Source: a virus. From it: a DNA stretch of 57,721 bases. The notes below the pieces were generated by a model that saw nothing but the letters and a program-made list of their open reading frames with translations, had not been told where the DNA came from and searched no databases. The translations under genes were made by a program, and so were the position numbers. The DNA lies in the IMG/VR virus record IMGVR_UViG_3300030104_001324, positions 1 to 57,721 of that record. One strand, written 5' to 3'. Below are positions 20,569-34,358 of the stretch, piece by piece. The stretch's first letter is position 1, and every line of letters begins with the position of its first letter.

Positions 20569-22588
20569 GCCAATTCGGACCTATTTTTGCTTCTAATAAT
20601 AAGGGTACATTAAAGTTAACATTCCATCTCTTATCAATGATGTCTTTTAACTTCTCATTTGTACTATCTATTACTTTAAGAACAGCATGTTCCTCATTGG
20701 GGTGAACATCAATCACAATAGAATCGTGTACTGTATTCACAATACAACTTCTCAGGTCTTTGAGTTCCTTATCTATGTGTAGTAGTGCTATAGGTACAAT
20801 GTCTGCTGTCGCAAAGGACTGCACAGGATAATTCTTTATCTGTGTAAAGTGCGAGACAGTATTATTGCGTCTACGTACAACATCAGGAAAGGAAAACTCT
20901 CGTCCTGAAGGGGTTGAGATCTTGCCAGTGTTTAAGGCTTCATCAGCAAGACGTTTATGCCACTTGGCTATACCTGCATACTTGCTATTGAACTGCGAAT
21001 AATATGCAGCTTCAGCAGGTGTTCGCCCATATCCACTAGCACCATACAACGGTGCGAATGTGTGAGCCTTGGCATCTTGTCTTGATGTAGGTTGCCCTGC
21101 TTCGGATATAACCTTGGCTGTATAGGCATGTACATCAAATCCTGTAGCTACTTCTTCCATAGCTGTCTTATCTTGTCCTAACCACGCGGCAACACGAAAC
21201 TCTAGCTGTGCAAAGTCAGCTTCCATGATCTTGCCACCTTCCCATCGTGACACAAACACCTTCTTCACAGGGAATGTACCACCTCTAGGCATGTTCTGCA
21301 TGTTAGGATCAGCACCACTTAACCTACCTGTAGAAGTTCTGTGCTGTAAAAGTCTAACGTGCAGGCGATTGTCAGGTTTGGTGTGTGTTCTGATTCCCTC
21401 CACAAATGAGGACAGGTATGTGTCAATGGCTGAGAGCCTTTGCACCCTACTAAGAAAAGCAACAGCACCATCCATATTCCTAGCACGAGCAATCCCTTCA
21501 AGATACAATAGGTTTGTTTTGTTTGTGCTGAAACCATTAGCACTAACCCATTTAGCATTTGGCGCATTGAACTTTAACCCTGCAACAACATTACTAATAG
21601 GGGTAAAGATATACCCAATACCAGTACAGTCATTACATTTGTTTGATCTAGCAAATAGTTTTCCATCTTTCTTTACCTTTCTAACTGAGCCTGTTCCCTT
21701 ACAGGCAGTACACTGATGAGCCTTCTGTTTAAGAAGAACCTGCGACTGATCCTTAACACAGTCCTTATATGAATCATTAGCCATGTAAGGATCAAATGTA
21801 TTTGCCCATACAGTTTTGTCCTTTGGCTTACGACTATACACAATCCATGATAGTTGTTCAGGACTGTTAAGATTGATGGGCATGTCTCCCATTAGTTCCC
21901 TTACCTGCTTGTTAAGGTCAGACACTAACTGTTGTCTCTCTCTTTCAAACTCATCCTTAACTTGTCCAAGCTTGGACAAATCAACCTTGAACCCACGCTG
22001 ATAGATACGTGCTAGACACACAACTACCTGATTAGTTAGGTCAACTGTGTCACGTAAGCTACTGTCTTCTAATAATAATCTTTTGTATATCCTGTCGGAT
22101 AACTGCTGTGTAGCGTACAGATCAGCAGTCAGGTAGTCTACCAGTTCCTTCCAAGGGATGTCAGCAGTAGAGTAACCCTTACTAAAGTAAGCCTTGAGTG
22201 TGTCCTGCTTCTTAGTGTCTAGGTTATATCTCTCAGCACATGCCTCAAGGGAGAGTGGTTCTTTCAACCCACGTTGTAAGACGTACTCACCTAGCATGGT
22301 ATCAAACACAGGACCATCATAGGTAAACCCACTCTCCCACAGCCACAACAAATCGTATGCTGCATTATGCATTATAAGTATTGTTGATCTATCCAACCAA
22401 TCTTGTACCACCTTGTGTCCATCCTTCCAAGGATCAACCTCATTGTGATTGAATGTAATGATAGCTTTCTCACCTGTGTCCGATAACATACCCACCATTA
22501 CAAGCTCATTCGTAGCTTCAAATGGATCAAGGTGCATCTTACCATCACGCTTGGTTACAGTGTTCTCTATGTCAAGTGTTAGTTTCAT
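20546..22588 (-). CDS. polA: Family A DNA polymerase with internal DnaJ-like zinc finger
   Basis: A 680-residue replicative polymerase. The N-terminal 3'-5' exonuclease has LDIENT (D6, E8), HNAAYDLLWL (about 74-83) and YLTADLYATQQL (152-163). Polymerase motif A is MEADFAQLEFR (about 455-465), motif B is RQDAKAHTFAPLYGASGYG (503-521), with Phe at the position equivalent to E. coli Phe762, and motif C is VHDSIVID. Between the exonuclease and the palm, residues 293-325 hold two CxxCxGxG repeats like the DnaJ zinc finger, the hallmark described for phage HMO-2011. A copy of the 18-bp palindrome lies in codons 204-209. The start overlaps the GIY-YIG gene by 17 bases. Confidence 0.95.
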   Translation of the reverse strand: MKLTLDIENTVTKRDGKMHLDPFEATNELVMVGMLSDTGEKAIITFNHNEVDPWKDGHKVVQDWLDRSTILIMHNAAYDLLWLWESGFTYDGPVFDTMLGEYVLQRGLKEPLSLEACAERYNLDTKKQDTLKAYFSKGYSTADIPWKELVDYLTADLYATQQLSDRIYKRLLLEDSSLRDTVDLTNQVVVCLARIYQRGFKVDLSKLGQVKDEFERERQQLVSDLNKQVRELMGDMPINLNSPEQLSWIVYSRKPKDKTVWANTFDPYMANDSYKDCVKDQSQVLLKQKAHQCTACKGTGSVRKVKKDGKLFARSNKCNDCTGIGYIFTPISNVVAGLKFNAPNAKWVSANGFSTNKTNLLYLEGIARARNMDGAVAFLSRVQRLSAIDTYLSSFVEGIRTHTKPDNRLHVRLLQHRTSTGRLSGADPNMQNMPRGGTFPVKKVFVSRWEGGKIMEADFAQLEFRVAAWLGQDKTAMEEVATGFDVHAYTAKVISEAGQPTSRQDAKAHTFAPLYGASGYGRTPAEAAYYSQFNSKYAGIAKWHKRLADEALNTGKISTPSGREFSFPDVVRRRNNTVSHFTQIKNYPVQSFATADIVPIALLHIDKELKDLRSCIVNTVHDSIVIDVHPNEEHAVLKVIDSTNEKLKDIIDKRWNVNFNVPLLLEAKIGPNWLDTKDVA
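21962..21979. promoter_or_regulatory. Palindromic operator-like site 1 (inside polA)
   Basis: TTGTCCAAGCTTGGACAA, a perfect 18-bp palindrome, one of seven sites sharing the core GTCCAAGCTTGGAC. It lies inside the polymerase gene and is read there as Leu-Ser-Lys-Leu-Gly-Gln. It is the most distant copy from the control region. Confidence 0.75.
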
Positions 22589-23111
22589 TTTCCATACTCC
22601 TTACTATATTAATAGCACTATGTAAAGGAAGCTTAAACCATTCAGACTGTCTGTCCTCTGCTAGTTCATTAGCCTTTTTATGTGCCATAGTTTCTGCTTT
22701 TCTTCTGTCCTTCACAGGTACAGCTACCTCTAACTTATAATCCCTGAGAGGAGATGACGTTTGGTAGCTGTTACATCTATCTGATGCATCCATTGCCATG
22801 CCTATCTTTACCCAACCTTTCCATGCAGGATTTGATATAGCATATACATATCCATCTTTTGATCTCTGCACATTTTCAAAAGAGGAAAAGGCGGCATCAT
22901 TGAAAGATGTATAGCGACCTGCTTTATATAAAGGGTGGGATCGTGGTATATACTTTCCATCAACGTACATTCTATTTGAATTGACCACAGAATTATTGGT
23001 ATAGGTTTTAGCACAGCCTTTACATTGTAGTCTGTCTTCTTTCTCCCAAGACAGAGGCCAGTTAACATAAGCAGTTAATTCTACGTTACAAGTTTTACAT
23101 CTTTTTATCAT
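22572..23111 (-). CDS. GIY-YIG nuclease of the T5orf172 type with zinc ribbon
   Basis: A 179-residue protein. The N-terminus has CKTC and CKGC pairs (about residues 5-33) forming a probable zinc ribbon. The C-terminal half carries GYVYAISNPAWKGWVKIGMA (about residues 87-106), matching the G-x-Y-Y...KIG start of the T5orf172/MUG113 branch of GIY-YIG nucleases, followed by CNSYQTSSPL and a KAETMAHKKANE helix with the catalytic Glu. It sits between helicase and polymerase with four- and 17-base overlaps, so it is either a domesticated replication nuclease or a homing-type gene that became fixed. Confidence 0.75.
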   Translation of the reverse strand: MIKRCKTCNVELTAYVNWPLSWEKEDRLQCKGCAKTYTNNSVVNSNRMYVDGKYIPRSHPLYKAGRYTSFNDAAFSSFENVQRSKDGYVYAISNPAWKGWVKIGMAMDASDRCNSYQTSSPLRDYKLEVAVPVKDRRKAETMAHKKANELAEDRQSEWFKLPLHSAINIVRSMENETNT

Positions 23112-24334
23112 GCTGTGTACCTCGCTGTTTTGTAGTCAAGATTACATGTGATTATACCATGATAACCTGACAGTTTGTTTTTTACAATATTAATATGTCT
23201 CTGTGGATCTTCGTCTTCTCCGTTGTTATTGGTAGCAGGGTTCTTTGCAAGTAAGATCATAAGATCTGCTTCAGCAGCCTTACCTGTACGACTGCCCTCC
23301 ATCATGGCTTGGTTAAGTATAACCTTACCCTCTGCTTCAGCAGATAGCTGTGACATGTAGAAGATAGCACAGTTGTGTTGCTTTGCAATCATACGAGCAT
23401 GGACTGCGTTAGCCTTGAGTGCTTCATCCTGTCGAGCAAAGCCTCCTGTCTTGGCAAACTTGTCACCCATATCTAACACCACAATGTCAGGCTTATATGA
23501 CTTACAGATTGACTCAACCCAAGACATATCTCTGCCTGTCACATCACGTACCTTGATGTTCTGATGTACAGGATCATATAATTCTCTGGCTTTTTTTGGG
23601 TTAACTTTGATGTCTTGAACAGACATACCTGATGCTGCAGTAAGATACCTAGCACCAACTCTGTGTGATGCTTCTTCGTTACATAAGACAATGCAGTTAG
23701 CACCCTGCCTAGCAAATCCATTCGGACCTGCAATAAGACTTGCATGGAAAGATGTCTTACCTGTGTTAGGTCTAGCACCTACCTCAACCAAGTGACCTTC
23801 ATTAACACCTTCAAGCACACGAGTAAGGGAAGGTATATTGAAAGCCCATCGTGCTTCCATCTTGTTCTTGGCAAGCAGGGTTTCCATAGACATGTCATCC
23901 CACTCAACCTTGAGATCAGGAGTGAAGTCATCTGAGTAGGACTCAAGTAAGTGACGCAACGGCTCAAGGCTAGTCTGCGTACCGTTTACATAGTCAAACC
24001 CTAAGTTCGCTATGTCCTCACCAATTACCTGTTGGAATAGTTTGGATAACACTTCCTGTGCTACGTCACTACCCATAGGTGTTTCAGTTTTAATCTTACG
24101 AAACAGATCTGAGTATGCCTGCTTCTGTGCTGTTGTTAGTGTGGGATTGCCTGACATGAAGAGAGCTTCTATCTCATCAGGTGTGACAGTCCTTTCATAT
24201 CTGTCCATAGCAAGATCAATAGACTGCTTAATCTTTCGGACATCTTTTGTGAATAGTCTATCAGGACATCTAGCACCACGATGCTCTTCGTAGAACTCCT
24301 TGTCCATTAGACTACGTATTAATGATAACTCCAT
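23108..24334 (-). CDS. dnaB: DnaB-like replicative DNA helicase
   Basis: A 408-residue RecA-fold helicase. The Walker A is GARPNTGKTSFHASL (about residues 186-200), the Walker B region is KPDIVVLDMGDK, a Gln-bearing FYMSQLSAEAEGK sensor motif follows, and the C-terminal NKLSGYHG completes the DnaB-type motor. The N-terminal 150 residues are helical, as in primase-interacting domains. It lies between primase and polymerase, and together these form the core replisome. Confidence 0.9.
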   Translation of the reverse strand: MELSLIRSLMDKEFYEEHRGARCPDRLFTKDVRKIKQSIDLAMDRYERTVTPDEIEALFMSGNPTLTTAQKQAYSDLFRKIKTETPMGSDVAQEVLSKLFQQVIGEDIANLGFDYVNGTQTSLEPLRHLLESYSDDFTPDLKVEWDDMSMETLLAKNKMEARWAFNIPSLTRVLEGVNEGHLVEVGARPNTGKTSFHASLIAGPNGFARQGANCIVLCNEEASHRVGARYLTAASGMSVQDIKVNPKKARELYDPVHQNIKVRDVTGRDMSWVESICKSYKPDIVVLDMGDKFAKTGGFARQDEALKANAVHARMIAKQHNCAIFYMSQLSAEAEGKVILNQAMMEGSRTGKAAEADLMILLAKNPATNNNGEDEDPQRHINIVKNKLSGYHGIITCNLDYKTARYTA

Positions 24335-24335
24335 A

Positions 24336-25115
24336 TTATACTCCTATGTTGGTAAGACTATCTATGTCTTGGGGGTTTCTGTATTTTAAATCGTCTGTCA
24401 AACGTAATGCTTTTACGTCAGGCACATGAGTCTTTAGTTCTCGTACAAACGCTAGTGTCTTGGGTAATGCGTCAGGGTCTAGCGCAACTACTGCCGTAGA
24501 GAATTGTGATAAGTATCGCTTGTGTGATTCTGATAGTGATGTACCCAACACAGCAACCCCAACATGCACATCGCTAACTGTTCCAACCACTGCAGCACTT
24601 ACACAATCCTCTACAACTACTGCGACTTTACCATAGCCATGAGCATAAGGCAAGTCACTTTTTCCATATCGTTTCCACTTAGGTAATCTTTTATCAAGGC
24701 TACGTCCTGTAGCGTCAACGATCTTACCCTTGTGTACGATAGGGAACACAACCCTATGATCCTTTACGTCATACATCAACTCAGTAGTTTCTATATCCAG
24801 ACCATAGGTATTTGCAAATTCTAATACAACCTCATCATTATTATGAGGCACTATATACTCAGGTAAAGTAAAAGGCACTTCAACTATCTCTTCAGCAAAT
24901 GATCCAAGAGACTTGCGAATGTCCTCACTTGTAAGGTGTACTCTCTTACCTCCTGAGAGTGAGCAAGATACCTTGTAACAATTCCAAAGTATCTGACCCA
25001 TGTTGTTAGTGATAGTGAATGTCTTCTCCTTATTCTTACACATAGGACAAGTCATGCGTTTAGTTTCACCATCACGTAACTGTAAATCATTTATAAGTGT
25101 ATTGATATTAACCAT
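24336..25115 (-). CDS. DNA primase (zinc-binding plus TOPRIM)
   Basis: A 259-residue primase. I start it at ATG 25115 (MVNINTLINDLQLRDGETKR), overlapping the integrase stop by eight bases; the longer start at 25142 lies within the integrase gene. The zinc module has CPMC and a later C-x4-C (NCYKVSC). The TOPRIM part has VVVEDCVSAAVVG with the catalytic Glu and ALDPDA with the DxD. It has the T7 gp4-like primase layout but no fused helicase, which is the next gene. Confidence 0.88.
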   Translation of the reverse strand: MVNINTLINDLQLRDGETKRMTCPMCKNKEKTFTITNNMGQILWNCYKVSCSLSGGKRVHLTSEDIRKSLGSFAEEIVEVPFTLPEYIVPHNNDEVVLEFANTYGLDIETTELMYDVKDHRVVFPIVHKGKIVDATGRSLDKRLPKWKRYGKSDLPYAHGYGKVAVVVEDCVSAAVVGTVSDVHVGVAVLGTSLSESHKRYLSQFSTAVVALDPDALPKTLAFVRELKTHVPDVKALRLTDDLKYRNPQDIDSLTNIGV

Positions 25116-26187
25116 TATACACACTTTTAACATGGGCATCACGAGTTGTCAAGGCATTATTTGCACTTGTAAAAGTATTTTTCATGTAGGGTTTAACCGA
25201 ACTTGGATTTGTATGACCTGTCACTGACATGATCTGCCCAAGTGACACACCTGCGTCCACCATTTCGGTTGTTCCTGTCCTCCGAATGTCCATTAATCGT
25301 AGCTCGTCAGACAATCCTGCCTCACGCATGACACCCCTTCCTTTTTTGGATAGTCCATACAAGGAATAGGGTATAAACTCCCCCTGTACAGGCTTTATTT
25401 GAGGGCATATGTACCTCTGAAAGCCAAAGTCCTTTCGTTGTTGTTCTAACATGTCAAATAGCTCCTCTGATATGGGTAAAAATACCTCTGCCCTACGCTT
25501 GGATTGCTTGATGTGAACCTGCCTATCGTTGATGCTTGTCCACTCTAACAGACGCATATCACCTAGCCTTTGCACCCATTCATAAGCCATCTGAACTATC
25601 AGTCCTACGTTCCTAGTGTCAAACTCAGCGTAAGCTGTCTCAAGAAACTTGGTAACATCAGCCCTAGTCCATACTACCTTGCGTTGTATAGGTGACTTAC
25701 GTGTTACCTGACTGAAAGGATTGAAGGGAGCATCATCAAACTGCACTGCGTATGTGAATAAGCGTGAGCTTACACTACAGGCATGGTTGGCAAAGGTTAT
25801 CCCTCTGTTCAACCACTTGTTGTATATCTGCTTTGCATCTTTCAGTGTCACAGACTTGTACTTCCTATTGCCTATGTCCTCAGATAACTGACGCATGAAG
25901 TATCGGTAGTCTGTCTGTGTCTTGTCACGTAACTGTGCAAAATCCCATGAATCTGTGTACGCTCTAACGATTTGATTGACAGTGCTTGTACTACGTATCT
26001 CATTGCTATCCTCCTGATCCTTTCGCCATGTATCTATGATCCTATTGAGATTAGAAGCCTTGCGTTTAGCTGTGGCTAGGTCTTTGCCTAGCTCACAACG
26101 TGACACAATGCCCTGATCCACAAACTTCTGTGGTGGATTGAACCTATAGCTATCCATACGCTTCTGTGTAAAACGAGGTAGTGCCAT
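25108..26187 (-). CDS. int: Tyrosine recombinase / phage integrase
   Basis: A 359-residue integrase. The core-binding domain is about residues 65-150 and the catalytic domain about 170-345. Expected catalytic residues are R207 (VQRLGDMRLLEW), a Lys near 228, R302 in LMDIRRTGTTEM, H325 in TGH and the nucleophile Y334 in VKPYMKN. Spacing R302-H325-Y334 is standard. The first His of the usual HxxR box is Met299 here. Integration into a host tRNA gene would be typical, but no attP core could be identified from one sequence. The gene sits inside the replication operon, without a neighbouring excisionase or recognised repressor. Confidence 0.9.
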   Translation of the reverse strand: MALPRFTQKRMDSYRFNPPQKFVDQGIVSRCELGKDLATAKRKASNLNRIIDTWRKDQEDSNEIRSTSTVNQIVRAYTDSWDFAQLRDKTQTDYRYFMRQLSEDIGNRKYKSVTLKDAKQIYNKWLNRGITFANHACSVSSRLFTYAVQFDDAPFNPFSQVTRKSPIQRKVVWTRADVTKFLETAYAEFDTRNVGLIVQMAYEWVQRLGDMRLLEWTSINDRQVHIKQSKRRAEVFLPISEELFDMLEQQRKDFGFQRYICPQIKPVQGEFIPYSLYGLSKKGRGVMREAGLSDELRLMDIRRTGTTEMVDAGVSLGQIMSVTGHTNPSSVKPYMKNTFTSANNALTTRDAHVKSVYNG

Positions 26188-26189
26188 TG

Positions 26190-26429
26190 CTAATATTTCC
26201 TTTCATAAAATGTGAAATTTCCAAACTCATCACAGAATTTTTTTACGCTATCAAAATTTGGTCTTGGTTTTTTACATCTTTTGTCAAATCCTATTTCGTA
26301 GTTAAGATAATTTAAAGCCTCTTCTTCGGTATTAAACTCTATATTTTCTACTACTATCTCGTGAACATCACCTTTCCAATCATCCCAATAGAACTCATCA
26401 CTAGCATCTCTTAGTAAAAATTTACTCAT
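26190..26429 (-). CDS. Small acidic hypothetical protein next to integrase
   Basis: A 79-residue acidic protein rich in Trp, Phe and Tyr. ATG 26429 overlaps the stop of the DUF932 gene (ATGA); the longer frame to 26468 reads into that gene. It ends three bases before the integrase start. Position directly before int would suit an excisionase, but it is acidic and shows no DNA-binding motif, so I leave it unassigned. Confidence 0.55.
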   Translation of the reverse strand: MSKFLLRDASDEFYWDDWKGDVHEIVVENIEFNTEEEALNYLNYEIGFDKRCKKPRPNFDSVKKFCDEFGNFTFYERKY

Positions 26430-27274
26430 ACTGCCACCAAGTCTTGAAACTGCTTGGACTTTACCCACTTGGTAACGTCAAGCTCTCTGTTCCACATGGA
26501 TACTGCTTCAGTATCTTTGCCTGTGTTACGTAGCTTAAAGCCGTTACGCTCATCAGCATAGCTTGCATAGTTAGTGAAAGCACTGTAGATGCTGTATGCA
26601 TTAGCACCTCGTGTGCTTACCTCTGCACCATAGAGTGAGTACATCTTCTCTGCCTGTTTGTCAGACATGATCTTCTCAAACAGAGCCTTAACATCTACAC
26701 TGGCTGTTGATGTGTTCGCCCACTGTTGTAGTGTATTAGCCTGATCGTAGAAGTCTGTTGATGACTGCTCTAGTTGTCTGCCAAAGCCATCTATGCAGAA
26801 GTTGGATGTGTTCTTACGCTTCACAATGTCATGCTCACCTCGCACCATCTTGTTTGTGCAGAAGAATGATATCTGTCCATACACCACGATGTTAGAACAC
26901 AGACCATCAACTCCATGCAGACCTATGATACGCTGTCCAATCTTCTCGCTATGCTTATCTGTATAGATGTCATAGCTTACGTTAGGTAATGTGATGTCCA
27001 TCATCATGTACCCATCATTACGAGCAGACCTCCAATCAATAGTCATGCCTTCTAGCTCTTCAGCAGATAGCTTGTCCTGCATAGTATTCCATACAGTGTG
27101 AGCAAAGTTTGTGTGTGACGTAGTGGTAAAGCCATTACCCACCACGTTAAGGTATGTGTCTGTACCTTTAACCTTGACGTACTTCTTGTCAGGAACTTTG
27201 GATGGCTCATACTCCACCTCAAAGTCAAAGTTCTCAGGTACATGAAAGTTAGTTGTTGTTAAATCAAATGGCAT
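26426..27274 (-). CDS. DUF932-family phage protein
   Basis: A 282-residue protein beginning MPFDLTTTNFHVPENFDFEVEY, with an AAGGAG site seven bases before ATG 27274; the frame extending to 27367 crosses the promoter and is not used. The arrangement of a VVGNGFTTTSH motif, a central GLHGVDGLCSNIVVYGQISFFCTNKMV segment and a C-terminal helical part matches the DUF932 group found in phages and plasmids (function unresolved). It is the first gene of an operon driven by a strong promoter and leads into integrase and replication genes. Confidence 0.75.
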   Translation of the reverse strand: MPFDLTTTNFHVPENFDFEVEYEPSKVPDKKYVKVKGTDTYLNVVGNGFTTTSHTNFAHTVWNTMQDKLSAEELEGMTIDWRSARNDGYMMMDITLPNVSYDIYTDKHSEKIGQRIIGLHGVDGLCSNIVVYGQISFFCTNKMVRGEHDIVKRKNTSNFCIDGFGRQLEQSSTDFYDQANTLQQWANTSTASVDVKALFEKIMSDKQAEKMYSLYGAEVSTRGANAYSIYSAFTNYASYADERNGFKLRNTGKDTEAVSMWNRELDVTKWVKSKQFQDLVAV

Positions 27275-27322
27275 TTGTAATCTCCTTTTCTGTTTGGGTT
27301 GCAACTGATAGTTAGTTATATA

Positions 27323-27351: not shown

Positions 27352-27382
27352 GATATGATCTGACCAATCATCACATGGGTCG

Positions 27383-27661
27383 TTAGGTATTTCTGCTGAG
27401 TTCATTCGCTATCTCCTGTCTTGCGTTCCATCTTATCCAACTGTACATACAGTGATCCTCACCATAGCATAGGTCAATTAGAGAAACAAGGTTATACTTT
27501 TTATCTTTCTTCCACTGCCAGTTCCTTGCACTGAATGGTTGATGTACCCTGCCACCTGTCACCACATTGAGTAACATGGACAGAGAGATCAACACACGCA
27601 GGCAATAAGAACCTGTGGAACTTGTCCAAGCTTGGACGAATTTGTTAACCACATTTATCAT
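27383..27661 (-). CDS. Hypothetical protein containing operator site 2
   Basis: A 92-residue protein with a moderately hydrophobic stretch (YCLRVLISLSMLLNVV, about residues 18-34) followed by a basic Trp-rich part. Its start overlaps the upstream small gene stop by four bases (ATGA). Codons 8-13 overlap a copy of the palindrome, read here as V-Q-A-W-T-S. No family is recognised. Confidence 0.55.
   Translation of the reverse strand: MINVVNKFVQAWTSSTGSYCLRVLISLSMLLNVVTGGRVHQPFSARNWQWKKDKKYNLVSLIDLCYGEDHCMYSWIRWNARQEIANELSRNT
27622..27639. promoter_or_regulatory. Palindromic operator-like site 2
   Basis: TTGTCCAAGCTTGGACGA: the invariant 14-bp palindromic core with TT/GA flanks. It lies just inside the gene that starts at 27661, in a different reading frame from site 1. 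Confidence 0.75.
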
Positions 27662-27798
27662 AGGTCTAGCTCCTCCTTAAATTTTTCAATAGTTTCTAAT
27701 ATAAAATCAAATATGTAAGCTTCTTTAATATCTGAGGCTGCCATAGTTTTAAGATAAACATTTATCATCATAAGTAAATCATCCTTTGTTCCTTTCAT
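27658..27798 (-). CDS. Small acidic helical protein
   Basis: A 46-residue protein (MKGTKDDLLMMINVYLKTMA...KEELDL) found by reading the gap between two larger frames. It has GGAG-type spacing before ATG 27798, overlaps the upstream gene by 20 bases, and its stop overlaps the next ATG. Probably a real coupled small gene of unknown function. Confidence 0.55.
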   Translation of the reverse strand: MKGTKDDLLMMINVYLKTMAASDIKEAYIFDFILETIEKFKEELDL

Positions 27799-28000
27799 TA
27801 GTTTCTCCTTTCATTTCTTTCAGTACCTTTTCTACTACCTCCTCTTTGGTATGACCAAAGTAAACTGTATCATTATACACGAGGGTATAACTAGGCAGTC
27901 CTGCGTCATAGTATTTATTCAGATGTTGATCTTTGACCTGCAAGCCTAGCTCTAGTTTCAGCTTTGATCTTAGCGTTGAGCTTCTTCTTTCGTTCATCAT
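27779..28000 (-). CDS. Small basic hypothetical protein
   Basis: A 73-residue basic protein with an AGGAGA site directly upstream of two consecutive ATGs (28000 and 27997; the second has better spacing). It contains a TLVYNDTVYFGHTKEEVVEKVLKEM segment, possibly a small strand-helix unit. It overlaps both neighbours and belongs to the chain of tiny early genes. Function unknown. Confidence 0.55.
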   Translation of the reverse strand: MMNERRSSTLRSKLKLELGLQVKDQHLNKYYDAGLPSYTLVYNDTVYFGHTKEEVVEKVLKEMKGETNERNKG

Positions 28001-28160
28001 TCTCCTCCCTAGTTATGAACTCAAAGTTCTTTACGTTACGCATCTTCCTAGCTTGCCTTACATAACCATCCTTCTCAGCTTGGTCAACACATACTACTAT
28101 TAAAGGCATGACCTTAAACATCTCCTTCATTTTCTGTATCTCTTTTTTGTAGTCCTTCAT
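27915..28160 (-). CDS. Small basic hypothetical protein
   Basis: An 81-residue, strongly basic protein starting MKDYKKEIQKMKEMFKVMPLIVVCVD. ATG 28160 follows an AGGAGG site; the ATG at 28184 has none. The end is a Lys/Arg-rich helix (ERKKKLNAKIKAETRARLAG) that could bind nucleic acid. It overlaps neighbours on both sides. No family recognised. Confidence 0.55.
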   Translation of the reverse strand: MKDYKKEIQKMKEMFKVMPLIVVCVDQAEKDGYVRQARKMRNVKNFEFITREENDERKKKLNAKIKAETRARLAGQRSTSE

Positions 28161-28296
28161 GTGCTTCCTCCTTTGTGTCTGCATCCATAATTGTCTTTAT
28201 CATGTCAGCCTTCCACCCATCTATGTAACGTAGGTCAGCTATAATCCTCCTCTTTGCTAGGTCTATGTGTGCTTCTTCTTCTTTTTTTTTCGCCAT
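28114..28296 (-). CDS. Small hypothetical protein
   Basis: A 60-residue charged helical protein beginning MAKKKEEEAHIDLAKRR. I prefer ATG 28296, which has a GGGAG site, over ATG 28323, which lacks one. No recognised domain. Confidence 0.5.
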   Translation of the reverse strand: MAKKKEEEAHIDLAKRRIIADLRYIDGWKADMIKTIMDADTKEEAHEGLQKRDTENEGDV

Positions 28297-28315
28297 ATTA
28301 TTACTCCCATTATTA

Positions 28316-28411
28316 TCAGCCATACTGCATCCATATCATCATCCCTATAAATATTACCACTAAGACTAGCATAGTAAAATCATTAGGGTCTTTGTTATTC
28401 CAATAGCTCAT
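28316..28411 (-). CDS. Tiny single-span membrane protein (31 residues)
   Basis: A 31-residue frame: MSYWNNKDPNDFTMLVLVV then a continuous hydrophobic helix (about residues 13-28). It starts within the 3' end of the zinc-finger gene upstream. Short one-span proteins are frequent in phage early regions, but at this size the call is tentative. Confidence 0.4.
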   Translation of the reverse strand: MSYWNNKDPNDFTMLVLVVIFIGMMIWMQYG

Positions 28412-28550
28412 ATTCTTTTTCCTTAAAAATAAATTTCTTATTGCAGTAACCGCAGATAGCTTCACCATCTTTCAGTCTATAGTAGACCCTTGGGTGGTCA
28501 TCTTCACACATAACTGCTTCTGTGTTTACGTACTCTACATTTTCATCCAT
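28395..28550 (-). CDS. zf-CHCC-like zinc-finger protein (51 residues)
   Basis: A 51-residue protein. The pattern C-x3-HPRVYYRL...AICGYCNKKF (Cys15, His19, Cys34, Cys37) matches the CHCC zinc finger known from NDUFS6-like proteins (C...HP.V...L......CPYC...F). Found by reading a stretch without a longer frame. It overlaps both neighbours by a few bases, which supports a real coupled gene. Role unknown; nucleic acid or protein binding is likely. Confidence 0.7.
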   Translation of the reverse strand: MDENVEYVNTEAVMCEDDHPRVYYRLKDGEAICGYCNKKFIFKEKEYELLE

Positions 28551-28716
28551 ATTCTACTACCTCACCAGTGTTCCACTTGTCTGCTTCCACTTGTGCTTCC
28601 TCCCTTGTGTCAAACAATTTAATGGGTGTGTCCACTGTCCACATAGCACCACACCCTGATTTTACATAGTCAGAGCCATCCTCTTCAAAAGGTTCAATCA
28701 TTACTGCGTACTTCAT
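28543..28716 (-). CDS. Small acidic protein
   Basis: A 57-residue acidic protein (MKYAVMIEPFEEDGSDYVKSG then ...WTVDTPIKLFDTREEAQVEADKW). The strand-then-DTREEAQ-helix ending is a common small phage fold for proteins of unknown role. Its stop overlaps the zinc-finger gene start by eight bases and its start overlaps the upstream stop. Confidence 0.6.
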   Translation of the reverse strand: MKYAVMIEPFEEDGSDYVKSGCGAMWTVDTPIKLFDTREEAQVEADKWNTGEVVEYG

Positions 28717-28931
28717 TGCCATACTCCATCATTAGTTCTCCACTCCAAGCCTTCCCACTCTAGGTCATGCTCAATGTTTTTCCAAGCTAACTCGTACTCA
28801 TAATCCCAACACGCAAACAAAGATTCTGTCGCATGAGTATTAACTATTTCGCACATATCATCAGCAGTCTTTTGAGCATAGTCATTCAAGCTAGGCTCAT
28901 GGTCTAGCGGTAGTTCATTCTTGAATATCAT
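28713..28931 (-). CDS. Small acidic hypothetical protein after methyltransferase
   Basis: A 72-residue acidic, Trp-rich protein. ATG 28931 shares its first base with the methyltransferase stop (TGATG); the longer frame to 28976 lies inside that gene. Acidic small proteins encoded beside a methyltransferase could be DNA mimics or regulators, but nothing in the sequence proves it. Confidence 0.55.
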   Translation of the reverse strand: MIFKNELPLDHEPSLNDYAQKTADDMCEIVNTHATESLFACWDYEYELAWKNIEHDLEWEGLEWRTNDGVWQ

Positions 28932-29923
28932 CACTCCATTCCTCTCATTATGTGGGCGATTACATTTACAGTCCAACCATTGCCCAACATCTTGTATCGT
29001 TGACTGTTACTGATAGGCTTTATCTCATTAGACATAGATATATCTGGATACTTTCTATGAAACCTACCATACTCAGTGTATCCATCTGGTACTGTCTGTA
29101 ATCTCTCACATTCCAATGGAGATAATGCCCTCCAATGTAACTCGTCTGTGTTTATCTTAGGTTCTCTGTGTCCACCTTGCATGGTAGTCAAGGCAGGTGA
29201 CTTGCCTGATGTGGCATACACTCGTTTGATAATGTCATACCCTTTGATGTCAGCCTCACCAACCTGATGACAACCCTTAGTGTCAAACACTAACTGCCTT
29301 CTGGACTTCTCGTAGTACATCTTCATGCTACCCCCCTTGAAGTAGTTGGCATCTACACAGTAGGACTTATCTCTGTCCACCATGCCATCTTCAATTATGT
29401 GCTTGAGTACAATGCCCTTGTCCTCCCACTCCTCAATAGGAATGTTAGTCCAATACAATCTCTTGCGATTATGTGCAGAGAAGTCAGCACTGTTTATCGT
29501 TATGGGTTCACAGAACTCATCTGTACCTAGAGCCTCGCTTATGCCCATAGTGATGCGTAACTCCTGCTCCTTCTTCATAGGTACATTCTCAAACAGAAAG
29601 TACTTAGGCTTCAGTCCACGCAAGGCATCAAAGATAAGGTCAGATAGGTCACGTTCATCTCCATCTGCCTTACCCTTGCCTGCCACCGAATACGGTTGAC
29701 AAGGAAAACCACCCATCAGTAGGTACACATCCTTACCTATCATGTTAGTCCAATTCCTTGCGTCACCATGTCGGATAGCATTGGGATAAGCATACCTACT
29801 AACTGCTTCGGCATACTTATCTATCTCAAATGCATGGTACTCAATGTCTGTGTGGCCTAGCTTATCTAAGGCTAGGTGTCCACATGACATGCCATCACAT
29901 AAACTCGCTACAATCTTGGTCAT
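28931..29923 (-). CDS. C5-cytosine DNA methyltransferase
   Basis: A 330-residue Dcm-type enzyme. Motif I is SLCDGMSCGHLAL, motif IV is GGFPCQPYS with the catalytic Cys, motif VI is FLFENV, motif VIII is AHNRKRLYW and motif X is GNGWTVNVIAHI. All catalytic elements look intact. The target recognition region (about residues 170-270) gives no readable specificity. No cognate restriction gene is adjacent, so it is an orphan methyltransferase, probably protecting phage DNA from host restriction. Confidence 0.93.
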   Translation of the reverse strand: MTKIVASLCDGMSCGHLALDKLGHTDIEYHAFEIDKYAEAVSRYAYPNAIRHGDARNWTNMIGKDVYLLMGGFPCQPYSVAGKGKADGDERDLSDLIFDALRGLKPKYFLFENVPMKKEQELRITMGISEALGTDEFCEPITINSADFSAHNRKRLYWTNIPIEEWEDKGIVLKHIIEDGMVDRDKSYCVDANYFKGGSMKMYYEKSRRQLVFDTKGCHQVGEADIKGYDIIKRVYATSGKSPALTTMQGGHREPKINTDELHWRALSPLECERLQTVPDGYTEYGRFHRKYPDISMSNEIKPISNSQRYKMLGNGWTVNVIAHIMRGME

Positions 29924-30288
29924 TAGTTCATCACCTTTTCTTTACTGAAATATTGTTTAGCCATATCTTGTGTAGTTATGTACTCCACACCACTCGCTAT
30001 GTCCTTCATAAGATATGGCTTTGTCCTAGCCTTGCGTCTGTACCCTGACAGTATGAAAGTTTTACCGTCCATCCTAGCAGTCTTAGACAGATCAAGATTG
30101 TGTATCTCTGCCCATTGCTCCAAGTCTTTCTCAGCTTGGGTACTAGCACCATCTACTCTTAGGTTCAGCTTGAATGTTACCTCATCATCATTGAATGATG
30201 CGTTACCTACTGTGACCTCGTAACCTTCTATCGCTACCATGCTTTGTAGACTATCTCTCAACTCTTTTACTTTATTTCTGTTTAGCAT
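29923..30288 (-). CDS. Hypothetical protein upstream of methyltransferase
   Basis: A 121-residue basic protein: an N-terminal helix, strands (EVTVGNASFNDDEVTFKLNLRV), then a Gly-Tyr-Arg-Arg-Lys segment. It resembles small phage proteins that accompany replication genes, but I recognise no family. Its stop overlaps the methyltransferase start by one base and its start overlaps the next gene, indicating coupling. Confidence 0.6.
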   Translation of the reverse strand: MLNRNKVKELRDSLQSMVAIEGYEVTVGNASFNDDEVTFKLNLRVDGASTQAEKDLEQWAEIHNLDLSKTARMDGKTFILSGYRRKARTKPYLMKDIASGVEYITTQDMAKQYFSKEKVMN

Positions 30289-30508
30289 TTGTTTCCTCCA
30301 TAATTAAATCTGTGTAGTAAGGACTATCACAATTCTCTGGTTGTGTAAACTTAAATATTTTTTGCAATGGATAAGAGCATCTCAGCTTATCTATTGTGTG
30401 ATACTCAAGAGGTATACCTTCCGATACGTGCCTATCTAATTCACGCATTGTGTTTACAAGGTCAAGTATCTGTTGCCTCTCTTGTTTTGTTGCTTCGTAT
30501 ATATCCAT
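30272..30508 (-). CDS. Small hypothetical protein
   Basis: A 78-residue helical protein (MDIYEATKQERQQILDLVN...). It has a GGAG-type site before ATG 30508 and overlaps the downstream gene by 17 bases. No family recognised. Confidence 0.55.
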   Translation of the reverse strand: MDIYEATKQERQQILDLVNTMRELDRHVSEGIPLEYHTIDKLRCSYPLQKIFKFTQPENCDSPYYTDLIMEETNAKQK

Positions 30509-30511
30509 CTG

Positions 30512-30700
30512 TTAGTTCTCCTTTAAAAATATTGTTGGTCGTTCAGGTGGCATAGACATGGGCTTGCTAACAGTCTCGTACATCTCAAAGCACTCGCCTG
30601 CATCTGCACCATACAGTTTTTCTGCATGGGCATTGCATTGGTCAAGCGTAGTGAAACGCATGACCATTAGCAACCCATATACTGTGACTTGTTCAAGCAC
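30512..30700 (-). CDS. Small hypothetical protein with GTG start
   Basis: A 62-residue protein starting at GTG 30700, whose first base is the last base of the upstream TAG stop (TAGTG), so re-initiation is the likely mode. An internal ATG 13 codons later (MRFTTLDQCNAHAEKLYG) is an alternative start. Operator-like site 3 lies about ten bases upstream. Confidence 0.5.
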   Translation of the reverse strand: MLEQVTVYGLLMVMRFTTLDQCNAHAEKLYGADAGECFEMYETVSKPMSMPPERPTIFLKEN

Positions 30701-31050
30701 TATGCTACTTTGTCCAAGCTTGGACGAGTTGCCTTCAACTGTGCCTTAACAGTCTTCAACTCAGCACGTAGCCTACGTAACTCTTTAGCAGTTTCTGATA
30801 CGTCATACTTATTAGTAATCGCACCATCAGTAATCAACTTTGATGCTCTGTATCGTATACGATTTACTGGCTCACGCAGTGTGTCAGCTATGAACTGTGC
30901 AGTATGGTCTACGTACCCTTCAATCAAAGATATATCGGTAGGTGTGTAGTTATACGTGTACTTTTTAGCTTTCGGAAAGTGAGCAGTATGTGTGCTATAA
31001 TCCTGCTTAGTGTCGTATGTTGCAAATGCTGTGTTTGTTGTGTTAGTCAT
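30700..31050 (-). CDS. Hypothetical basic protein with C-terminal coiled coil
   Basis: A 116-residue protein: a Thr/Tyr-rich start, then DISLIEGYVDHTAQFIADTLREPVNRIRYRASKLITDG (about residues 39-76), which has the look of a small helix-turn-helix with a DNA-reading helix, and a coiled coil (AKELRRLRAELKTVKAQLKA). Its last codons overlap operator-like site 3. It is a candidate DNA-binding regulator; the HTH reading is tentative. Confidence 0.55.
   Translation of the reverse strand: MTNTTNTAFATYDTKQDYSTHTAHFPKAKKYTYNYTPTDISLIEGYVDHTAQFIADTLREPVNRIRYRASKLITDGAITNKYDVSETAKELRRLRAELKTVKAQLKATRPSLDKVA
30710..30727. promoter_or_regulatory. Palindromic operator-like site 3
   Basis: TTGTCCAAGCTTGGACGA. 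The 14-bp core lies in the final codons of the gene at 30700-31050 (read P-S-L-D-K, a third frame) and just upstream of the GTG-started gene. Confidence 0.75.
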
Positions 31051-31063
31051 AATAATTCCCTCC

Positions 31064-31348
31064 TTAGTGGGTTAATGTTGAGTTGTGTACATAGCTTTGA
31101 ACCTCTGGCTCTGGCTCTATGTGCCATTCTTTGATGAAGTCAAACTCCACCTTGCTTTTTGGATACACCACTTTAATCATGCGTAACACATGGTCAATAG
31201 CTGATGTTCCATCTGTGACTGTGGGGTAGGTATCATCTACAATAACAGTACCATGCTCCCCATCTACAGTCAACCCTATATGGTAGTATCCGATAGGCTC
31301 TCGCTCATCTGTCATACCCCAATCTTTTTTGTATAAAAAGCTAGTCAT
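31064..31348 (-). CDS. Hypothetical acidic protein
   Basis: A 94-residue protein starting MTSFLYKKDWGMTDEREPIGYYH. ATG 31348 has a GGAGG site seven bases upstream, while the longer frame to 31387 enters the previous gene. It contains HIGLTVDGEHGTVIVDDTYPTVTDG, a strand-rich segment. No family recognised. Confidence 0.55.
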   Translation of the reverse strand: MTSFLYKKDWGMTDEREPIGYYHIGLTVDGEHGTVIVDDTYPTVTDGTSAIDHVLRMIKVVYPKSKVEFDFIKEWHIEPEPEVQSYVHNSTLTH

Positions 31349-31520
31349 TACTCCTCCAATTATTGTAAATTTCCATTGCTTTAGCATCTATCATATCTTG
31401 CCAGAACTTTTCTGGGTTGTTAAACCATTCCTTCTCTAGCGTGTGCCAGTTTCTATTAACCTCCATTTCTGCTTGTTCGTAGCATCTCTCTTTTATCTGT
31501 TCGTTGTATTCGTTACTCAT
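31341..31520 (-). CDS. Small charged hypothetical protein
   Basis: A 59-residue helical, Trp/Asn/Glu-rich protein (MSNEYNEQIKERCYEQAEME...). It was read from the gap between two larger frames. Its stop overlaps the next gene by eight bases. It would be the first gene after the possible promoter at 31547-31575. Confidence 0.55.
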   Translation of the reverse strand: MSNEYNEQIKERCYEQAEMEVNRNWHTLEKEWFNNPEKFWQDMIDAKAMEIYNNWRSND

Positions 31521-31546
31521 GTTTTACCTTTCTGTTTTTTTTTTAT

Positions 31547-31575
31547 TATGTAGCATGGTAGCTATACCTTGTCAA
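31547..31575 (-). promoter_or_regulatory. Possible sigma-70 promoter
   Basis: TTGACA (31570-31575, minus strand) is followed after 17 bp by TACATA, or after 19 bp by CATAAT. The -35 is perfect but the -10 is weak at good spacing, so this is tentative. It would drive the gene starting at 31520. Confidence 0.35.
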
Positions 31576-31775
31576 ACATTTATTTTTTTCATCTCTCCTG
31601 TCAAACTGTTATATTTCAACCCCAATGTTTTGAGTACCTCATTAGCTAAGTCCATTCTGCCCTTATCATACGTTGACTCTGACACGTAATCTTTATGGTA
31701 GCGTGGATTTGATAAGACTATTTTACATAATAAAATCACATCTGCCACATTAAAATCTTGTTCACTCAGGCTCAT
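31572..31775 (-). CDS. Small hypothetical protein
   Basis: A 67-residue helical protein (MSLSEQDFNVADVILLCKIVL...). ATG 31775 overlaps the upstream stop (ATGA) and has an AGGAGG site eight bases before it. Its 3' end overlaps the possible promoter at 31570. Unknown function. Confidence 0.55.
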   Translation of the reverse strand: MSLSEQDFNVADVILLCKIVLSNPRYHKDYVSESTYDKGRMDLANEVLKTLGLKYNSLTGEMKKINV

Positions 31776-31909
31776 GCTATCCTCCTAGCTTGCTTGTTCT
31801 TACGTGCAAGTTTACGCTCACGCTTCCACTCATCACGCTTTGGTTTTTGTCCAAGCTTGGACACTTTTTTAATTGGTATCTTCTCATATGCTTTAATCTC
31901 GTAGTACAT
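31772..31909 (-). CDS. Small very basic protein containing operator site 4
   Basis: A 45-residue, extremely basic protein (MYYEIKAYEKIPIKKVSKLGQ, then KPKRDEWKRERKLARKNKQARRIA). It was read from a gap. Its start overlaps the upstream 48-residue gene by 17 bases and its stop overlaps the next ATG, so it fits the coupled operon. The palindrome is read as S-K-L-G-Q, the same frame as in the polymerase. Likely nucleic-acid binding by charge. Confidence 0.55.
   Translation of the reverse strand: MYYEIKAYEKIPIKKVSKLGQKPKRDEWKRERKLARKNKQARRIA
31847..31864. promoter_or_regulatory. Palindromic operator-like site 4
   Basis: TTGTCCAAGCTTGGACAC, with the invariant 14-bp core, inside the 45-residue basic gene at 31772-31909. 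Confidence 0.75.
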
Positions 31910-32039
31910 TACGCTTCTCCTTTCCTCTGTTATACTTCGCACCTTTACCTTTCTTAGGTGGCACGATCTTAGGTGATCGCCTATCTTGTAGCATAGTTCT
32001 TGCTATAGGATTGATAGGTTTAATTAGGGGTAGTTTCAT
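31893..32039 (-). CDS. Small basic protein following GP88
   Basis: A 48-residue basic protein (MKLPLIKPINPIARTMLQDRRSPKIV, then PPKKGKGAKYNRGKEKRN). ATG 32039 overlaps the GP88 gene stop (TAATG). Read from a gap; coupling on both sides supports it. Function unknown. Confidence 0.6.
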   Translation of the reverse strand: MKLPLIKPINPIARTMLQDRRSPKIVPPKKGKGAKYNRGKEKRNVLRD

Positions 32040-32758
32040 TATGCCACCTTTCTAATTACAAATCCACTTGTGTCATGCCTTGCATCACCTTTAGCTTTCA
32101 ACCCTACAACTACATTGGTGGGGTCAAGGAAGCGTAGGTCATCAGTATCACCATCAATAACCTTTCTTCCTAAGAAGCATATAGGCAAATCACCTTCAAA
32201 CACAACTGCCATGCTTGTATTTGTATCTGCACAAGCCAAGTTTATCTTTTTAGCATAATCCATACTAGCTTCACTATATGACAAGGTAAGGTGATAGTTG
32301 CTAGGCAAATCTTTATACACCCTAGTATAAATTTTAGTGTAGTCATAGAACTGCACCAATGGATTAGCTTCCATAATACCAAACTTTTCCCACATAATAT
32401 CAGTAGTTCCATTTAATCTAATGCATGGTTGCTGACCATTCTTTAAGCAACGCTTAGTAAACTTAGTCATATCCTCCTGCAAAATTTCCATAAATAATTT
32501 TCTATTTGTATAGAACTGTATCAGCTTACGTTCCCTTGCTGACTGTACATTATGCATCTTACCCCTGCCTGCTGAAACAAGGCAACCTTCATGACAACTT
32601 GCCTGCTCTGCAAAGGCGCAAGGATTAACAGTTTTTCCTAGCTCCTCAATAAAAGTTTTGTATGACTTCATATATAAAATAGCAGTCATGTACTCATCAC
32701 CATTGCCTTTAATTGTTTTGGCATCATTGCCAACGGAAAGTAATTTGTAGTCACCCAT
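32039..32758 (-). CDS. GP88-family phage protein
   Basis: A 239-residue protein of the family named after mycobacteriophage gene product 88. Recognisable parts are KLLSVGNDAKTIKGN, a Cys cluster (NPCAFAEQASCHEGCLVSAG), RLNGTTDIMWEK, VQFYDYTKIYTR, YHLTLSYSEAS and GLKAKGDARHDTSGFV. The Cys cluster suggests a metal or Fe-S site, but the function is unknown. I start it at ATG 32758, behind AGGAGT; the TTG start at 32782 would lie inside the operator palindrome. The leader carries a sigma-70 promoter and operator site 5. Confidence 0.8.
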   Translation of the reverse strand: MGDYKLLSVGNDAKTIKGNGDEYMTAILYMKSYKTFIEELGKTVNPCAFAEQASCHEGCLVSAGRGKMHNVQSARERKLIQFYTNRKLFMEILQEDMTKFTKRCLKNGQQPCIRLNGTTDIMWEKFGIMEANPLVQFYDYTKIYTRVYKDLPSNYHLTLSYSEASMDYAKKINLACADTNTSMAVVFEGDLPICFLGRKVIDGDTDDLRFLDPTNVVVGLKAKGDARHDTSGFVIRKVA

Positions 32759-32774
32759 TTGTTTTACTCCTGAT

Positions 32775-32792
32775 TTGTCCAAGCTTGGACAA
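32775..32792. promoter_or_regulatory. Palindromic operator-like site 5 (leader of GP88 gene)
   Basis: TTGTCCAAGCTTGGACAA, a perfect 18-bp palindrome in non-coding leader DNA between the -10 box (32827-32832) and the ribosome site of the GP88 gene, about 30-45 bases downstream of the expected transcription start. This is the position of a roadblock or proximal operator. Confidence 0.8.
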
Positions 32793-32826
32793 GTTAAATG
32801 TTACATTTAAAATGTAGTATTATATA

Positions 32827-32855
32827 GTTATATTATAGATCGTTTGAATAGTCAA
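32827..32855 (-). promoter_or_regulatory. Sigma-70 promoter of the GP88 operon
   Basis: Minus strand TTGACT (32850-32855), a 17-bp spacer and TATAAC (32827-32832). The -35 lies in the last codons of the small membrane gene at 32833-32949. It reads through operator-like site 5. Confidence 0.75.
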
Positions 32856-32949
32856 GTGCCACCTGCCTAGCTAGGCAATATAAAAACCATACAAACAAAA
32901 CATCTCCTACGATTAGAATTGCACCCCCTATAAATAAGTATAAATTCAT
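32833..32949 (-). CDS. Tiny single-span membrane protein (38 residues)
   Basis: A 38-residue protein beginning MNLYLFIGGAILIVGDVLFVW: an uninterrupted membrane helix (about residues 4-25) with a short cytoplasmic tail. The ATG overlaps the upstream stop (ATGA). Unknown role. Confidence 0.5.
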   Translation of the reverse strand: MNLYLFIGGAILIVGDVLFVWFLYCLARQVALDYSNDL

Positions 32950-33179
32950 TTTATAATATTCCTTTCTTCTATTAAATATATAATGTTATTATGTAGCGTC
33001 ACAATTTCAGCGCGCTTTTTATCTAACAAATTATTTTTATCATCTATTAGTTTACGTTGCGCCTTTACCTTCTCTTTGTATTCTTCAATAGTGTTTAACT
33101 TTTTCTCTAAGAATATTAACATTTCTTTATAGGCCATTTGCATAGCGTCCAATTGTTTTTGTAGTTCTATTGTGTCCAT
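32946..33179 (-). CDS. Small coiled-coil protein
   Basis: A 77-residue protein that is almost one continuous coiled coil (MDTIELQKQLDAMQMAYKEM ... KLIDDKNNLLDKKRAEIVTL). A GGGGGT-type purine stretch precedes the ATG. It could be a multimerising regulator or a spacer; no family recognised. Confidence 0.55.
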   Translation of the reverse strand: MDTIELQKQLDAMQMAYKEMLIFLEKKLNTIEEYKEKVKAQRKLIDDKNNLLDKKRAEIVTLHNNIIYLIEERNIIK

Positions 33180-33190
33180 AGTTCCACCCC

Positions 33191-33397
33191 CTATAAATTA
33201 TGCTTTAGTTTTAAAAGTTGTAGTAAATAATCTGAACTATCAAAATTAGTTTCTTCAGTCCTACAATCTCGACAAGCTACAGCTTCAAATTCTAGGCCAT
33301 AATCCCTATCGTCTAAGTAAGTTTGTTCTTCATCTGATCTAAGCGTAAAAGCTTTATTACACCCCTCACAAATTTCAGTTGTCATATAATCTAACAT
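33191..33397 (-). CDS. Small zinc-ribbon protein behind operator site 6
   Basis: A 68-residue acidic protein with CEGC (about residues 10-13) and CRDC (about 42-45), a likely zinc ribbon. The start at 33397 has an AAGGAT site; an ATG four codons later is an alternative. Operator-like site 6 lies about 28-45 bases upstream, so this gene may head the unit that follows the terminator at 33487-33513. Function unknown; DNA or protein binding is plausible. Confidence 0.6.
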   Translation of the reverse strand: MLDYMTTEICEGCNKAFTLRSDEEQTYLDDRDYGLEFEAVACRDCRTEETNFDSSDYLLQLLKLKHNL

Positions 33398-33424
33398 TTT
33401 TTAAATCCTTTTTATGATTGTTAG

Positions 33425-33442
33425 TTGTCCAAGCTTGGACAA
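33425..33442. promoter_or_regulatory. Palindromic operator-like site 6
   Basis: TTGTCCAAGCTTGGACAA, a perfect 18-bp palindrome in the intergenic DNA upstream of the zinc-ribbon gene, next to the nested hairpin at 33459-33534. Confidence 0.8.
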
Positions 33443-33458
33443 GTTGAAGCATATAATT

Positions 33459-33534
33459 GCTTCAGCAAGAACAGTATTAAGAACGTAAAAACCCCAAGCT
33501 TTTACACTTGGGGTCAATACTGTTTAAGCTGAAG
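33459..33534 (-). terminator. Intrinsic terminator inside a three-tier nested inverted repeat
   Basis: On the minus strand CCCCAAG (33507-33513) pairs with CTTGGGG (33492-33498), followed by TTTTT (33487-33491): a standard rho-independent terminator for the gene at 33546. It is flanked by two further inverted repeats, AACAGTATT (33516-33524 with 33470-33478) and CTTCAGC (33528-33534 with 33460-33466). The GCTTCA arm can also pair with TGAAGC at 33445-33450, so two folds compete. Confidence 0.75.
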
Positions 33535-33545
33535 GAACTAGGGGT

Positions 33546-34223
33546 TTATGCAACTTTTTTATTCTTAGCGTTTACCATGTCTAAAGTTCTTTTAGCTGAT
33601 GTTAAAGCTGATATAACTTTTTCAATATCTAATCCTTTAGCGTGACAATGTACGGCCACCATTTTAGCTATTTCAATTTCAGACATTGGCAAGGAAGCTT
33701 TCTTTTCTTTAGCTTCAGTTTCTTCAGTTTCAGTGTCTTCAGTGTCTTCAGCTTCAGTGTCTTCATTAACCTTGTTAGCTTTATTCATTTCAGCAAAGAG
33801 ATTAGTTAAGCTTGTGAATTGTGGATTGGCTCTAGCAAAGTCCATCACTTCATTATGCTCAGCTAATAGCCTTACGCACTCACTAACTCTTTGCTTTGGG
33901 AACTTGTCCAAGAAAAGCATCTCTTTAATCTTAGAAGGTATATTTTTATAGCCTTCACTATGCGCTAAAAACTTAGCGCGTTCTTGAAGCTTGCCCAATT
34001 CATAAAAGATACCGTTTGGTGATATATCAGCTATGAAAGTTGAGTGATCCTTCTTGGCCCTAGCTTGCCATGTATTCCAAAGCTTAGACGCTTTTGACAT
34101 ATCAGTATTTAAAACACTTGAGCCAGTTTGATTTACATCAACTGAACCTTTCTTTGGTGCTTTAGCTTTAACTGATTTAACAATCTTTTTTACATTAGCT
34201 TTTGTTTTAGTTGCTTTAGTCAT
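33546..34223 (-). CDS. Lys-rich orphan protein in its own operator-flanked transcription unit
   Basis: A 225-residue protein. Residues 1-28 are very basic (MTKATKTKANVKKIVKSVKA), the middle is helical (about 45-145, with LAEHNEVMDFARANPQF), residues about 150-175 are acidic repeats of Glu-Asp-Thr, and the C-terminus is a helical bundle (PMSEIEIAKMVAVHCHAKGLDIEKVISALTSAK). No family recognised. It is alone between promoter 34382-34411 and the terminator, with palindromic sites 7 and 6 on either side. It is the first leftward gene, so an early DNA-binding or regulatory role is plausible. Confidence 0.7.
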   Translation of the reverse strand: MTKATKTKANVKKIVKSVKAKAPKKGSVDVNQTGSSVLNTDMSKASKLWNTWQARAKKDHSTFIADISPNGIFYELGKLQERAKFLAHSEGYKNIPSKIKEMLFLDKFPKQRVSECVRLLAEHNEVMDFARANPQFTSLTNLFAEMNKANKVNEDTEAEDTEDTETEETEAKEKKASLPMSEIEIAKMVAVHCHAKGLDIEKVISALTSAKRTLDMVNAKNKKVA

Positions 34224-34340
34224 TTTTTAAATCCTTTGTTTGTTTAAGTTGTCTGGACACAGCTTGCGCCAGAACTTTGTTAGATCATACATTTAAACTA
34301 AACACAATAGTTATTTTAAAAAATATTTCATATTCAAATT

Positions 34341-34358
34341 TCGTCCAAGCTTGGACAA
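34341..34358. promoter_or_regulatory. Palindromic operator-like site 7
   Basis: TCGTCCAAGCTTGGACAA, the 14-bp core with one flank mismatch, in non-coding DNA about 17-34 bases downstream of the expected start of leftward transcription. Confidence 0.8.

Follow-up and report, generated by a model that had tools for sequence, protein, structure and literature searches.

In actinophage phiC31, the repressor recognizes symmetric, conserved inverted repeats that are present in many copies, lie mostly between genes and are tied to autoregulation of the repressor, and in plasmid RK2, a dozen dispersed OB palindromes are read by one global regulator, KorB. The stoperators of cluster A mycobacteriophages, such as L5 and TipsytheTRex, are 13-bp asymmetric sites that are bound by a monomer (PMC9283540). 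In the Bacillus prophage SPbeta, a proven lysogen, the 15-bp element SPBRE is repeated in promoter regions and was known in silico long before its reader, MrpR, a master repressor of an unusual, tyrosine-recombinase fold (PMC10516654). Here, a dispersed palindrome is described in the virus record IMGVR_UViG_3300030104_001324, of which all 57,721 nucleotides were analyzed (the window), together with the gene at 33546-34223, named C, as the candidate for its reader. Judged from sequence comparison, the sites and C are a real, conserved regulatory network at the DNA level with a strong candidate reader. The probability that the palindromes serve as operators for a DNA-binding regulator that the phage encodes in C is estimated at about 0.62.

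The 14-bp core GTCCAAGCTTGGAC is present in seven perfect copies in the window (Table 1), and no copies with one to three mismatches are found there. A given 14-mer is expected about 0.0002 times (57721/4^14). With up to three mismatches allowed, 1.8 copies are expected per shuffle and no shuffle attained seven, and the expectation for the 18-mer is 0.01. Three of the seven copies form the full 18-bp palindrome TTGTCCAAGCTTGGACAA, and the remaining four are off by one outer base. When spacings of 0-15 are scanned, all seven GTCC-GGAC pairs of the window have a spacing of 6. This all-or-none pattern, with perfect copies and no near-copies, indicates strong selection on the sites. All seven sites are confined to the minus-strand arm, with the rightward arm free of them, and the distance between them narrows toward the control region; three lie in leaders and four inside genes, where they are translated in three phases. 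These features agree with a preliminary description of the window, including its count of perfect copies and its expectation value. Its site positions hold as starts of the 18-bp frame but not of the 14-bp core, which begins two bases later.

The window belongs to the HMO-2011-type phages. Its DNA polymerase (PolA) is 69-71% identical to those of HMO-2011, CRP-1 and CRP-345 and carries the CXXCXGXG motifs of the central DnaJ-like zinc motif of this type, and its replication and structural arms are divergent and in opposite orientation, as in the HMO-2011-type layout. A dispersed GTCC-N6-GGAC palindrome is a common rule in the early arm of these phages. HMO-2011 carries four sites, with the word GTCCGACAGCGGAC, and the motif is also present in CRP-1 and CRP-345, with the word GTCCAANNTTGGAC. 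In 25 metagenomic loci that carry C, 120 sites have the spacing of 6 versus 0-5 for every other spacing, and a control pattern read backwards gives 0-2 hits per genome. In 80 polA loci, the spacing of 6 gives 39 hits and other spacings 0-7, except for 20 hits at a spacing of 18; this GTCC-N18-GGAC pattern was set aside, as it looks like ordinary shared sequence. Most genomes are either mostly A-type (GTCCAA..TTGGAC) or mostly G-type (GTCCGA..TCGGAC), with L115 and G034 slightly mixed, indicating that the sites switch letters jointly within a genome. CRP-207, CRP-2, CRP-603 and HTVC033P have 0-1 sites each, and no clear alternative palindrome network was found in the site-free HMO-2011-type genomes.

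Two further hits were rejected as operators and are regarded as coding coincidences, namely a GTCC-N6-GGAC hit at 14469 in CRP-345 and the word GTCCAAGGTTGGAC within the integrase gene (CRP-345 L012:7079, CRP-1 L014:6868, G010, G029 and others). The latter judgment is based on the G-type genome G029, which retains the A-type word there; the near-perfect dyad of GTCCAAGGTTGGAC is a curious observation in itself.

The coding sequences that contain sites show that selection acts on the DNA, as had been proposed in the preliminary description. The polA site reads SKLGQ in the window and in L011, and the other relatives have SKLDE, TKLDE, DALDS and similar residues. Since making this site required a residue change (DE to GQ) and the sites are read in three phases, the DNA and not the protein is the target. 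In addition, the small 45-aa gene carries a site in its coding sequence in almost every genome in which this gene was observed, G023 excepted, and the encoded residues follow the motif type (SNVGQ or SDVGQ).

Clustering of the early-arm open reading frames (ORFs) gave families that are restricted to site-bearing genomes, among them the family of C, and a profile search with C yielded 25 loci. Sites are present in all 25. Within a set of 35 polA contigs, all six that contain C have 4-7 sites, whereas the 29 without C have 0-1; G017, G020 and G026, which are near-complete and lack C, are free of sites. A site is found 236-376 bp upstream of C in 24 of the 24 loci with sequence there, at -289 in HMO-2011 and, as a copy with one mismatch, at -168 in G015; a second site is located within C at +392 to +449 in 25 of 25 loci. 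The regulatory-looking network that had been suggested from the window alone is thus conserved in HMO-2011-type relatives. Conservation in these relatives had been named in advance as a test, and the outcome was strongly positive, with two site positions invariant relative to C. The earlier view that no recognized repressor gene is present and that the binder may be new or come from the host is corrected in one respect: there is a phage-encoded candidate, and it is one of the genes that had been listed for gel shifts.

The link between C and the sites extends to a single residue. Base 5 of the half-site, A or G, switches together with residue 140 of C (window numbering), which is threonine in every genome of the A type; the five of the G type have S (three times), N or K there. 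When over 2000 aligned columns from 12 gene families are compared, T140 alone is both invariant in the A-type genomes and separates the types; no equivalent conserved column was found in the 11 other families, including the 71-aa, DUF932-like and 107-aa families and small genes. In a tree from which this column was left out, all four independent changes of motif type coincide with a change of residue 140, and three of these fall on well-supported branches. The residue lies at the beginning of a helix (139-157) that is predicted with confidence.

These observations suggest a mechanism in which C is probably a repressor or roadblock of early transcription. C would be produced early in infection, or maintained in a lysogen, and would bind the site near its own promoter plus the sites along the early operon. 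A dimer of C would read two GTCC(A/G)A half-sites that are separated by one helical turn, and residue 140, at the predicted helix start, would probably contact the fifth base pair. Bound C would most likely block initiation or elongation, tuning its own expression and shutting down early transcription. Among the leader sites, 29 of 69 sit 10-29 bp downstream of a -10 box versus 21% in controls (p about 6e-5, without correction for relatedness), and a protein bound at this distance would stand in the way of escape or of elongation. Because the leader sites trail -10 boxes and a fixed site lies upstream of C, the favored model is a repressor that regulates itself and acts through dispersed roadblocks.

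The product of C is basic (pI 9.3) and predicted to be all-helical, with confident helices at residues 40-157 (domain pLDDT, the predicted local distance difference test score, about 95). Several points weigh against its proposed role. In the window, the upstream site is at -120 and C lacks the in-gene site, and the protein is divergent, with 23-29% identity to its relatives. No recognized DNA-binding fold was found with Foldseek and VIA-align, using the full model and the domain alone, which gave low, unrelated helical matches, and no significant match was found in Pfam, PHROGs, NCBIfam or PDB. The tree-aware test counts three to four independent switches, too few for a formal sign test to reach significance. 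The sign of regulation is read from site position alone, and binding, dimerization and repression by C are what we infer from these comparisons. The missing family and fold matches do not prove that the fold of C is new. One strong BFVD match, S4S2E1, is listed without a name and may be a homolog, and no relatives of C, as prophage copies, were found in bacterial genomes.

Compared with the systems introduced above, the sites resemble dispersed operators in that many near-identical copies occur in promoter and intergenic DNA of one arm and are conserved in relatives. The phage phiC31 is unrelated, as is its repressor protein as far as known. Like the stoperators, the network consists of many copies of one short site at gene boundaries, has a small phage protein as its candidate reader and shows a specificity that evolves between relatives, and the stoperator domain is also without a known structural relative (PMC9283540). 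The network would work in the manner of stoperators but is not one of them. Unlike them, the site is a 14-18-bp palindrome for which a test for asymmetric sites failed, the core being symmetric and direction being found in the flanks, in leaders of several relatives. In addition, C matches no repressor family in the family libraries and PDB, with gp71 not compared directly. The preliminary description had set these sites apart from stoperators by their symmetry; the symmetry holds, but the arrangement is not of a new kind, since other phages have dispersed operators that are symmetric as well. With SPbeta, the network shares a repeated element in promoter regions across the phage, but C differs from MrpR in being small, predicted to be all-helical and of no recognized fold, and lysogeny is proven for SPbeta only.

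An unlikely alternative is that the palindromes act in RNA, as 5-bp hairpins in early transcripts (boxB/nut-like, or involved in mRNA processing or stability) that are read by C or by the 45-aa basic protein. The strongest case for a role in RNA, or for one that depends on direction, is provided by the directional flanks in leaders of several relatives, with GAAACC before and ACTTT plus a ribosome-binding site (RBS) after the core. The fifth base pair is compensated from A-U to G-C in 149 of 152 sites, and a small Arg/Lys-rich protein is encoded nearby. However, the bases that would form the loop show dyad symmetry, with A and T at the symmetric positions 5 and 8 in 144 of 152 sites, and the centers TG (70), CA (44) and CG (26; TA occurs once) are interchangeable. 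TG on one strand is CA on the other, an equivalence that a hairpin loop does not need, so that the center pattern fits a DNA dyad. Furthermore, the asymmetric center of HMO-2011 is present in both orientations on a single transcript, and an Rfam search of the window gave no RNA family match.

There is also a small probability that the DNA is bound not by C but by another phage protein, such as the 71-aa (35079-35288) or 116-aa (30700-31050) product, or by a host factor. The 71-aa gene shows high conservation and lies in divergent orientation beside the control region, but it is also present in the site-free G020, and the 116-aa gene is absent from several site-bearing genomes. Unlike in C, no conserved column in either family tracks the A/G switch. 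The changes of the motif within a single host family argue against a host factor. With no co-variation found elsewhere, a host factor or a generic repressor was set aside.

Even less probable is a centromere or a partition or nucleoid-type array in the style of parS, N15 or KorB, instead of transcription operators. Perfect dispersed palindromes near replication genes do resemble such arrays, but the KorB model PF08535 matches no protein of the window or seven relatives, which also sets the network apart from that of RK2, and no search was aimed at ParA. The phages concerned carry integrases, and the sites are located at gene starts and near promoters, with one fixed upstream of C and one inside it. 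A faint match of one C member to KorB/ParB (E 0.12) vanished on a further PF08535 search, and this identity was rejected. Chance, a restriction site or an assembly artefact can practically be dismissed: a HindIII site lies in the core, and a small number of isolated GTCC-N6-GGAC hits look like coding coincidences, but the expectation given above and the matching places conserved across dozens of independent genomes refute it.

A similar arrangement to that proposed for C and its operators is present in phages of another type. An exact scan found two GC-rich contigs from one sample, G065 (IMGVR_UViG_3300032080_000014) and G066 (_000021; loci L158/L198-L201 for the two contigs), with 29 GTCC-N6-GGAC sites in G065 and 12 in G066, many of them exact GTCCAAGCTTGGAC copies directly before start codons. 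The terminase of G065 and G066 is closest to those of Arthrobacter phages. Cultured Arthrobacter phages carry a different dispersed palindrome, GGGTCGG-N4-CCGACCC, with 30 copies in SilentRX (L202) and 24 in Tank (L203) in 50-kb stretches, and it is also found in BruhMoment and AWGoat (L204-L207 among the Arthrobacter loci). Most of these palindromes precede gene starts in the leftward arm, and one copy falls within the first early gene in Tank, SilentRX and BruhMoment. The first early gene of G065 is related to the Arthrobacter first gene (profile E 3.8e-5) and has a site upstream and one in the linker. No homology was detected between the Arthrobacter first-gene family and C, indicating that unrelated phages have this layout in common, whether their words differ or even coincide. 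The layout consists of a first early gene with a site upstream and usually another within the linker codons of that gene, plus additional sites where later genes begin. A bolder view, given slightly less than even weight, is that C is the founding member of a new class of phage regulators that bind DNA and have no known fold, that its early-arm operator network evolves in concert by single-residue switches, and that the layout has two or more origins, one in HMO-2011-type phages and another in Tank/SilentRX-type Arthrobacter phages.

The coordinates of the sites and of the genes discussed are listed in Table 1. Positions 1-166 of the window are identical to 57556-57721, so that the sequence possibly closes into a circle and represents an entire genome of about 57,555 bp. 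In relatives, an early promoter that is an inverted repeat in its own right, TTGATACTTTAGTGAAAGTGTTATATAAC, recurs, usually 20-40 bp before a GTCC site (CRP-1 L014:1001, HMO-2011 L013:15, G029 L103:4620, G015 L101:8553 and 10220). In this marine phage group, mycobacteriophage L5 genes 88 and 82 are resembled by window 32039-32758 (PF17338) and CRP-345 L012:2698-3105 (PF25735), respectively. The early arm of the window also contains insertions encoding a T5orf172/MUG113-domain protein (22572-23111) and a homolog of the CRP-603 cytosine-5 methyltransferase (28931-29923).

Table 1. Palindromic sites and associated features of the window.
Feature	Coordinates	Strand	Context
Site 1, GTCCAAGCTTGGAC	34343..34356		control region, 120 bp upstream of the gene C ATG
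Site 2, perfect 18-bp form	33427..33440		30 bp ahead of ORF 33191-33397, in its leader
Site 3, perfect 18-bp form	32777..32790		leader of the GP88-like gene, ~28 bp behind TATAAT -10 box, right before RBS
Site 4, reads SKLGQ	31849..31862		within small basic gene 31772-31909; relatives have a site in the same gene
Site 5, reads PSLDK	30712..30725		final codons of ORF 30700-31050, directly upstream of the following ORF
Site 6, reads VQAWT	27624..27637		codons 9-13 of ORF 27383-27661; retained in close relative L011
Site 7, perfect 18-bp form, reads SKLGQ	21964..21977		mid DNA polymerase; retained in L011
Gene C, 225 aa	33546..34223	-	first early-arm gene, candidate cognate DNA-binding protein
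Promoter-like TTCAAA-18-TATAAT	32819..32848	-	upstream of site 3
GP88-like gene (Pfam PF17338)	32039..32758	-	behind site 3
Small basic gene, 45 aa	31772..31909	-	conserved, carries site 4
DNA polymerase gene, HMO-2011 type	20546..22588	-	carries site 7

The HMO-2011-type phages are described as dominant and widespread in the ocean (PMC9038755). In text searches of PMC9038755 and PMC6918029, no mention of a repressor or palindrome was found. CRP-3, a more distant member, integrates, which was not shown for CRP-1 (PMC6918029). A signal, a probable reader and a single residue-base pair can now be named for testing. If C keeps a prophage quiet, this would bear directly on whether the integrase-carrying phages are truly temperate. 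In addition, a residue and dozens of sites that have switched jointly several times provide a good natural case of regulator-operator co-evolution.

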